A DNA stretch of 35,869 bases from assembly GCA_031267295.1 (NCBI GenBank), contig JAIRZI010000045.1, forward strand, positions 1 through 35,869. The letters are read 5' to 3'. The notes under the pieces are model-generated. The model had not been told where the DNA came from, searched no databases, and worked only from the letters and a program-made list of their open reading frames with translations. This document shows positions 8,001 to 14,695 of this stretch, one piece after another (within the stretch, counting starts at the first letter, position 1; each line of letters starts with the position of its first letter). The position numbers and the translations under genes are program-made. Origin of the DNA: Propionibacteriaceae bacterium. GTDB taxonomy: Bacteria > Actinomycetota > Actinomycetes > Propionibacteriales > Propionibacteriaceae.

Positions 8001-8345
8001 AAACACAAAGCGGTGCAGAGCCTGCTCGACAAGCGCCACGAGTCCGACGTGAAGCGCGCCCATGACATCTTCGCTGCGTTCCGCGAGAACCTGCGCCAGT
8101 CGCTGCGGCAACTCGAAGATGCACAAGCCGAGGAGGAAGCCCGGCTTTTCCTCGACCCAGACCAGCAGCGACAGCGACGGCGGGACATGGAGGCCATGAG
8201 TCGCCGCCTGGACGAGCTCGCCTCCGAGGAGGATCGAGAAATCACCGCGATCAACGAGCGCTACACCCAGCCTGAGCCGAACACCACAGCAGCGGCTTTG
8301 GTGTTTGCCCTGACCCGCGCCGACGCCGAAGGATGGATCGACTGA
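5064..8345 (+). CDS. drmD: DISARM DrmD, SNF2-family helicase
   Basis: 1093 aa; '[22 protein letters not shown]', '[10 protein letters not shown]', 'FLSATPHNG', '[44 protein letters not shown]'; first gene in class 1 DISARM order. Confidence 0.88.
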   Translation: [1093 protein letters not shown]

Positions 8346-13372: not shown

Positions 13373-14695
13373 ATGAACCTAATGAAACAAGTCTGTCGGT
13401 GTGTCCTGTACGCTCGGCTCAGTGTCACCAAAGAAGAATCCGTCTCCATTGCCCGGCAGCTTCAATCCTGTCGCAGCTACGCTCAGGCGCGCGGCTGGGA
13501 AGTCGTTGGTGAGTTTGTTGACGACGGCGTGTCCGCGACAGCGAATCGTCCCGAGGAACGCAAGGGTTGGGCGGCGCTCTTGGCCACAGGCGGCTTTGAT
13601 GCCGTCGTGATTTGGAAAGTGGATCGACTCGCCCGGCGTGTTCTCGACTTCCTGCACGCCGACGAAGCCCTCCAGAGGCGCGGCGCTGGCCTAGTCGCAG
13701 TGGAAGACCCTATTGATATGACCAGCCCCCAGGGTCGGGCTTTCGCCGTCATGCTGGCCGTGTTTGGCGAGATGGAGGCCGAGGCGATGCGGGCGCGAGT
13801 GCGCGCAGCTCGTTCGGCGTTGCTCAAGGTTGGGCGCTGGCCGGGCGGTGGCATCCCGTTCGGTTATCTGTCGGTAGCGAACCCCGATGGGCCGGGACGG
13901 GTGCTCGCGAAGGATGCCGAGCGTATCCACTGGCTGGCTGAGGTGGCGGCGATGGCCTTGTGCGGCGAGGCTGTCAATGCCATCGCCCGATGGCTGACAA
14001 CCGAGGGCGCACCAGTCCCAGGAGAACGCAAAGTGAGTCAGAGCGATCCCATCTGGAACCGGCAGACAGTCTATGGTCTGTTGCGCAACCCCATCCTGGC
14101 TGGGATGCGACCCCACAATCCCGGTCGAGGCAGGCAGGGCGCACGAGTCGACCCGTTCTCTGTCGTCCGTGACGATGTTGGCGTGCCTGTCATCGATGAA
14201 TCGCTAGCAGTTATCACTTTAGATGAATTCACCCAGCTTCAGCAGCTGCTCGATTCCCGTGACCTGCCGCAGGCTCGGAAGCATGGCGAACGGGTGACGA
14301 CCAGTCCGTTCCTCTCCTGTGTGGCTCGCTGCGATGATTGTGACGTGTTTTTGTGCCGGGGTACTAATCAGGGTAGGCCTGTTTTGTCGTGTCCGCAGTG
14401 CCGTCAGACTATAGGTCGTACTGCTCTCGATCCGTACCTTGCTGAACGTCTACTTACCGAACGTGGTGGTGAGCCGCTTGGCGATTCTACTGTCCGAGAT
14501 TGCTGGAATGTTGTCAAGTACAACGAGTCCGCCAAGCGTGACATTCTTCTGACTCAGCTTGATTTCCTGTATATCCGCCGAGGTGTGGTGGGTCGCTACT
14601 TCGATGAGGAGCGCATCATCCTGGCTTGGCGCAGATCTGCCGATCCTGCGCATTCTGGCATCGGCGACGGAAACTGTCATACCTGGCTGGAATAA
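13373..14695 (+). CDS. Large serine recombinase, putative DrmMI invertase
   Basis: 'CVLYARLSVTKEESVSIARQLQSCRSYAQARGWEVVGEFVDDGVSAT...GFDAVVIWKVDRLARRVLDFLHADEALQRRGAGLVAVEDPIDMTSPQGRAFAVMLAVFGEMEAEAMRARV' is the serine resolvase catalytic domain; followed by a recombinase domain ('GRWPGGGIPFGY...') and zinc-ribbon-like cysteines ('CVARCDDCDVFLCRG...LSCPQC'). The ORF track starts at 13343. Confidence 0.88.
   Translation: MNLMKQVCRCVLYARLSVTKEESVSIARQLQSCRSYAQARGWEVVGEFVDDGVSATANRPEERKGWAALLATGGFDAVVIWKVDRLARRVLDFLHADEALQRRGAGLVAVEDPIDMTSPQGRAFAVMLAVFGEMEAEAMRARVRAARSALLKVGRWPGGGIPFGYLSVANPDGPGRVLAKDAERIHWLAEVAAMALCGEAVNAIARWLTTEGAPVPGERKVSQSDPIWNRQTVYGLLRNPILAGMRPHNPGRGRQGARVDPFSVVRDDVGVPVIDESLAVITLDEFTQLQQLLDSRDLPQARKHGERVTTSPFLSCVARCDDCDVFLCRGTNQGRPVLSCPQCRQTIGRTALDPYLAERLLTERGGEPLGDSTVRDCWNVVKYNESAKRDILLTQLDFLYIRRGVVGRYFDEERIILAWRRSADPAHSGIGDGNCHTWLE

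Follow-up and report, generated by a model that had tools for sequence, protein, structure and literature searches.

Nested sites and a silent second C-terminus point to combinatorial, site-specific shuffling of methyltransferase specificity in a class 1 DISARM locus

Invertible specificity genes are already known, and what is new here is a probable mechanism of that kind in DISARM, as far as the open literature goes. In BREX, the 3' part of pglX is present again as an inverted copy beside a recombinase. The window, by which is meant the whole stretch of 35,869 nucleotides analysed from a Propionibacteriaceae bacterium, likewise carries an inverted 3' copy of a defence methyltransferase gene near a recombinase, in a different defence system, and we know of no multiple nested sites or sub-domain modules for pglX. 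It has been reported that SpnD39III of S. pneumoniae is a phase-variable type I R-M hsdS locus (PMC4190663, PMC4948785); it has in common with the window inverted silent specificity segments, in-gene recombination, combinatorial target-recognition modules and an adjacent recombinase. In hsdS loci a separate S subunit holds two whole target-recognition domains (TRDs), whereas in the window exchange would take place inside one TRD-plus-tail of a single-chain, MmeI-like DISARM methyltransferase, and the recombinase is a serine enzyme of the phage-integrase type. MmeI (type IIL R-M; structure 5hr4; PMC4833311) resembles DrmMI in having TRD-N and TRD-C followed by a helical tail, and its positions 773–774/810 and 806/808 line up; its specificity changes by mutation, both in evolution and in engineering, and no recombination cassette is described for it (PMC4833311). 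The class 1 DISARM of Serratia sp. SCBI includes an N6-adenine methyltransferase with the motif ACACmAG (PMC9142583); it has the same core genes as the window, and no invertible cassette or recombinase is reported for it in the literature found. DISARM has so far been treated as a system of fixed specificity, and a search of the open literature turned up no report of inversion in DISARM; outside that literature lie most subscription journals and preprints, including bioRxiv.

The window (contig C36 of a 1.69-Mb assembly in 97 contigs, in which the cassette is present once) holds the complete class 1 DISARM gene set in one locus, namely DrmD, DrmMI, DrmA, DrmB and DrmC as detected by PADLOC. 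The assignment to class 1 DISARM and the identity of DrmMI, both made in an initial annotation from the letters alone, are supported by PADLOC profiles and Pfam domains; DrmC was missing from that account, and the DrmMI reading frame in fact runs from 8333, 12 bases further out than the start at 8345 that had been given. The features, in window coordinates, are as follows.

5064–8345, plus strand: DrmD, SNF2-like helicase (PADLOC DrmD, 1209 bits)
8333–12463, plus strand: DrmMI, adenine methyltransferase of 1376 aa, the allele expressed at present (PADLOC DrmMI, 1608 bits)
11225–11248, plus strand: site A motif, DrmMI aa 965–972 (18/20 matches; KL 0.70 against a background of 0.27)
11606–11716, plus strand: outer inverted repeat, left arm, with site B (GAGTGGATTGCCGCnGAT..., aa 1092–1102); exact over 111 bp
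11717–11899, plus strand: module B-D, active allele, TRD-N part (41% identity to the silent copy; MmeI alignment)
11900–11932, plus strand: site D, left copy (TTGTCGGAGGTGTTGGTCATCGC...GTCAGC, aa 1190–1200), near the TRD-N/TRD-C boundary; 25 bp exact with 13033–13057
11989–12070, plus strand: second exact inverted repeat, left arm, with site C (CAGGCAGTCTTGTCATCAAGCCTGCA); 82 bp
12071–12463, plus strand: module C-end, active allele, with the equivalents of MmeI 806/808/810 (residues R, D, R), then the helical tail
12482–13330, minus strand: silent cassette, alternative DrmMI C-terminus with no proper start (alignment; MmeI_TRD match)
12887–12968, minus strand: site C repeat, right arm; 82 bp exact with 11989–12070
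13025–13057, minus strand: site D, right copy (25 bp exact, 11900–11924 / 13033–13057)
13220–13330, minus strand: outer inverted repeat with site B, right arm; exact over 111 bp
13343–14695, plus strand: REC, a short recombinase of the large-serine type (Pfam Resolvase, 110 bits; Recombinase)
15011–18778, plus strand: DrmA helicase (PADLOC, 982 bits)
18781–20853, plus strand: DrmB, MrfA zinc-binding domain (PADLOC, 214 bits)
20615–21547, plus strand: DrmC, PLD nuclease (PADLOC DrmC, 304 bits; PLDc_2); start uncertain, the reading frame overlapping the end of DrmB

A start-less second DrmMI C-terminus lying tail to tail with the first, perfect 111-bp inverted repeats and a recombinase just outside them had been proposed, and all three were found as described. 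The cassette, on the minus strand, comprises 282 codons that can be aligned over their full length with the C-terminus of DrmMI, and a TTG is the one start codon that its open frame offers ahead of the repeat; the repeats match exactly, and the recombinase frame is where it had been placed. The inner inverted repeats of 82 bp and 25 bp were absent from the earlier description, and site A has no partner in the window's cassette, which begins at site B. The same layout occurs in complete and draft genomes of other families, so the repeat is not due to chance. Simulated inversion of 11606–13330 gave the in-frame product that had been predicted, of 1373 aa as against 1376 aa in the present form, and simulated inversions at B, at C and at both gave in-frame proteins of 1373, 1380 and 1369 aa, respectively. 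With pairs B and C of the window, and D, which is shorter, four or more DrmMI proteins can be made in frame, the four forms being two B-D versions combined with two C-end versions.

DrmMI has the Pfam domains MmeI_Mtase, Eco57I and MmeI_TRD; a gamma-class N6-adenine methyltransferase motif is followed by MmeI_TRD and a helical tail, and the PADLOC profile REase_MTase_IIG matches residues 17–816. When the profile of the C-terminus was compared with the PDB, the sole sequence match was MmeI (5hr4, E 1e-16), and the AlphaFold model of DrmMI (pLDDT 84.8) likewise gave MmeI 5hr4 as the best Foldseek match (E 2.5e-21, TMq 0.66), the next fold matches being CamA, M.BseCI and BrxX/PglX. The expectation that the divergent C-terminal part holds the TRD is therefore upheld, because the modules fall in the MmeI TRD-N and TRD-C, and the closest solved structure is that of MmeI, not PglX. 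It has been reported that in MmeI the TRD-N (621–745) reads base pairs 1–2 and the TRD-C (746–825) base pairs 3–6, with Glu751/Asn773 reading base pair 3, Ala774/Arg810 base pair 4 and Glu806/Arg808 base pair 6, and that at 806/808 the pair E-R specifies C and K-D specifies G (PMC4833311, PMC4081073). By alignment, site D adjoins the TRD-N/TRD-C boundary and site C lies between MmeI residues 774 and 805; the window equivalents of 773, 774, 806, 808 and 810 are H, A, R, D and R in the active copy and D, A, E, R and R in the silent copy, and the equivalent of 751 is aa 1185 or 1198, the MAFFT and HMM alignments disagreeing, for which reason nothing is concluded from that position by itself. If the MmeI code applies, the silent form is predicted to read C directly after the methylated A, and the active form G if R-D is taken as like K-D; a B-D swap is predicted to alter the 5' bases. 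For the Serratia DrmMI (ACACmAG), the code predicts K774 together with a residue other than R at 810, and K/R806-D808. Among 35 arms, K774 always goes with a residue other than R at 810 (9 arms), and every arm with A, Q or M at 774 has R810 (26 arms). The arms with K774 have a worn site C (P 5e-5 in a rank test on related rows), which fits the expectation that a swap at this site would separate 774 from its matching 810.

When the arms were compared within each of 17 loci, islands of identity between them appeared at the same four places, here called A, B, D and C. Synonymous constraint was measured by an unbiased 8-codon scan of 17 active and 18 silent arms, with 25 DrmMI genes lacking REC as controls. 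The four strongest windows in the loci with REC were D (aa 1193–1200, 1.05 bits), B (1094–1101, 0.90), C (1229–1236, 0.86) and A (965–972, 0.70), against a background of 0.27 ± 0.19 in the same loci and a top window of 0.49 in the controls; at site B the constraint was KL 0.90 as against 0.10 in controls. Typical sequences are CGTGCnACCTCGCTCTTGCAG for site A, GCGCAAGAGTGGATTGCCGCnGAT for site B, TTGGTCATCGCTCGTGTCAGC for site D and CAGGCAGTCTTGTCATCAAGCCTGCA for site C. The sums of motif matches were at least 63 in rows with REC (n = 21, two genomes and the window each being entered twice) and at most 62 in genes without it (n = 26), so that the ranges do not overlap; since the rows are related, P values are not those of independent samples. 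The closest control, a Nocardioides plasmid DrmMI of 64% identity, is without REC, cassette or any of the four sites. The four DNA-level motifs in drmMI are thus found only where REC occurs, and their islands are kept identical within diverged arms, as over 41 bp in L042.

On the REC side, homology between the arms ends at A in most loci; the exceptions are the window, L042, L048 and L053, where it ends at B, and L047, L052 and L062, where it ends at D. L041 was left out of this comparison for a run of N at that place. In L044 the left half of A and the right half of D are joined inside drmMI (CGTGCGAC directly followed by ATCGCGCGTGTC); in L062 an A/D hybrid is found on the REC side, and L052 has a B/D hybrid (GAGTGGAT directly followed by CATCGCC). 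At the A/D and B/D joins the sites have just 1–2 bases in common, which speaks for site-specific and not homologous exchange, and the hybrid junctions are taken as footprints of past site-specific recombination. The crossover dinucleotide is predicted at GGA-TT-GCC in B and at TTGG-TC-ATC in D. The right half-site is common to A, B and D when these are aligned on the junctions (24/45 pairwise matches, against 12.9 ± 3.2 at random positions, P = 0.002). The L044 join is out of frame, so that non-cognate exchange can also switch DrmMI off.

Orientation differs between relatives. In a tree of the C-end module (aa 1246–1368), the active copy of the window falls together with silent copies, those of L054, from Propionibacteriaceae, and L059, from Bifidobacteriaceae (support 100/99), and the window's silent copy groups with the active copies of the same two loci (100/99); C-end identities are 76–85% across loci as against 55% within the window. 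The B-D modules are similarly crossed between the Microbacterium loci L040 and L060 (70/77% versus 41/34%). Of the pairs that could be read clearly, 17 show the crossed arrangement and 13 the parallel one, the pairs not being independent. These reciprocally swapped relatives, which are comparisons between species, contradict a single fixed orientation in all related genomes, and horizontal exchange of modules may be part of the cause. The window's B-D module is like that of L065 (79%) and unlike that of L054 (28–41%), from which it follows that the B-D and C-end modules have separate histories. In L065 (genome G434), the B-D modules are identical in the active and silent arms and the C-end modules differ (52%), as if one B-D module had been copied over the other.

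In bacterial genomes, REC homologues of about 64–79% identity nearly all have drmA on one side and an inverted copy of the drmMI 3' part on the other. When 85,462 species genomes were scanned, 31 loci came up; some 28 show the DISARM layout or lie on a contig that breaks off within the repeat, and carriers belong to Propionibacteriaceae, Microbacteriaceae, Promicromonosporaceae, Micromonosporaceae, Pseudonocardiaceae, Nocardioidaceae and other families, among them the isolates Microbacterium sp. 5K110, Cellulosimicrobium cellulans PW and Micromonospora sp. ALFpr18c; complete chromosomes are among them (L025, L052, G434/L065), so that an assembly artefact is not the explanation. A DrmMI-like gene (E <= 1e-60) is present in 30/395 genomes of the class, with the cassette in 4 of the 30. 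No extra DISARM loci came to light when genera and families, with one genome per species, were searched for pairs of one species that differ in orientation. Two relatives look damaged, L062, with REC split between contig ends, and L044. In L062 and L057 (Propioniciclava flava), REC is cut at residue 113–116, at two contig ends, which suggests an insertion in the recombinase, and the locus may be locked. In L044, a MAG, drmMI goes out of frame at the A/D hybrid (around 8050), the full C-terminus is in the cassette and DrmA is split, so that the locus has the look of being either switched off or in decay. The conjugative plasmid pNOCA01 of Nocardioides sp. JS614 (L107) carries a class 1 DISARM without cassette or recombinase, in which drmD is interrupted by a copy of IS1380 and further genes, one of them of the YfbU family, lie between drmMI and drmA.

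REC has the domains PF00239 and PF07508 above cut-off, with S27 and the four zinc-ribbon cysteines invariant, and resembles the Bxb1-like integrase 9iu2 (E 3.5e-16). By alignment of starts, translation probably begins at 13373 or 13382, a few tens of bases from the repeat edge. The gene is intact in most loci and its position is always the same. Its C-terminus is about 70–90 residues short of relatives of 46–54% identity; loss of a coiled coil was considered as a mark of invertases and dropped, because close phage relatives are equally short, and a structure model from a 4-sequence alignment (pLDDT 45) was too poor for use. Viral contigs in IMG/VR (L096–L104) carry presumed integrases 62–71% identical to REC and no DISARM, and in the tree those of L098–L100 nest among the DISARM copies; the gene thus seems to pass between phages and DISARM loci. 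A search beside the phage copies for sites like those of DISARM gave background matches only and no matching attachment sites.

We consider it probable that the locus is a combinatorial, site-specific specificity shuffler built into class 1 DISARM. REC would recombine inverted copies of short sites in drmMI and in the silent, tail-to-tail C-terminus, and each site pair would exchange all sequence downstream of that pair. REC is the likely acting enzyme, flipping presumably still goes on and the modules are expected to alter the methylated sequence; cells of one population with differing modules would then bear different self marks, and phage modified in one would be restricted in another. Points that speak against this reading are the mere 25 bp of identity at site D in the window, the missing partner of site A there, the presumed phage integrases closely related to REC, and the two damaged relatives.

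A simple two-state switch, in which REC acts at the outer 111-bp repeat only, the whole C-terminus is exchanged and the inner blocks are conserved protein, agrees with the outer repeat being the longest in the window and beside REC, and with the outer pair being the longest homology in most loci. It seems unlikely, however, as the D and C motifs are kept at synonymous positions in loci with REC only, D serves as the outer edge in other loci and recurs in hybrid junctions, and the nearest relatives differ for the window's C-end and B-D modules. The switch of this kind that had been put forward for the window holds as to the invertible C-terminus and the adjacent recombinase; its single flip is incomplete, since the presence of several nested crossover sites suggests combinatorial shuffling.

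That the arms exchange segments by gene conversion or by homologous recombination of the RecA type, with REC as a bystander, is quite improbable: the bases common to the hybrid joins are too few for it, motif islands stay identical within diverged arms, and cassette, sites and REC co-occur, even though some arms are long and near-identical (543 bp at 99% in L025) and the identical B-D modules of both L065 arms look like conversion. The locus could also be a dead relic of a past duplication beside a degraded prophage integrase with its attachment site in drmMI, a reading favoured by the place of REC within a family of phage integrases and by the drmMI of C. acnes, which is split by a 32.5-kb island (PMC7365801); against an intact REC at a constant place, a cassette still open and alignable, and sites under codon-level constraint, this must be called very improbable indeed.

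Within the combinatorial shuffler, the more specific proposal is that a serine recombinase of phage type has been domesticated and, at four sites in the coding sequence, shuffles modules smaller than a domain within a single MmeI-like TRD. This proposal, altering the methylated sequence position by position as it would, has in our judgement about an even chance of being right. The residues for base pair 1 would then lie in B-D, those for base pair 3 and part of 4 in D-C, and those for base pairs 4–6 in C-end; R-D (active) as against E-R (silent) at MmeI 806/808 would give G as against C after the methylated A, and a 774/810 clash after a swap would have let site C decay, as if selection permitted compatible joints only. 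The MmeI residue code being known, the effect of each flip would be predictable base by base, and nature here provides a design by which methyltransferase specificity could be made modular. If the shuffling is real, a widespread sub-lineage changes its self mark by recombination, giving mixed restriction barriers in populations, a phage protected in one cell is attacked in a neighbouring cell, and a recombinase of the phage-integrase type has been made into a host invertase.

Other genes of the window lie around the DISARM set. Upstream of DrmD, at 1977–4805 on the plus strand, is an SF1-type helicase with AAA_11/AAA_12 and a C-terminal DUF2726, which has similarity to the PADLOC profiles MkoC/MkoA and may be a further defence gene. 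A DDE transposase (DDE_Tnp_1; 22010–23236, minus strand) lies directly 3' of the DISARM genes, and between the enolase and TRCF (mfd-like) genes is the gene of a protein, some 1187 aa long, that has both beta-helix repeats and S-layer homology domains (27433–30996, plus strand).
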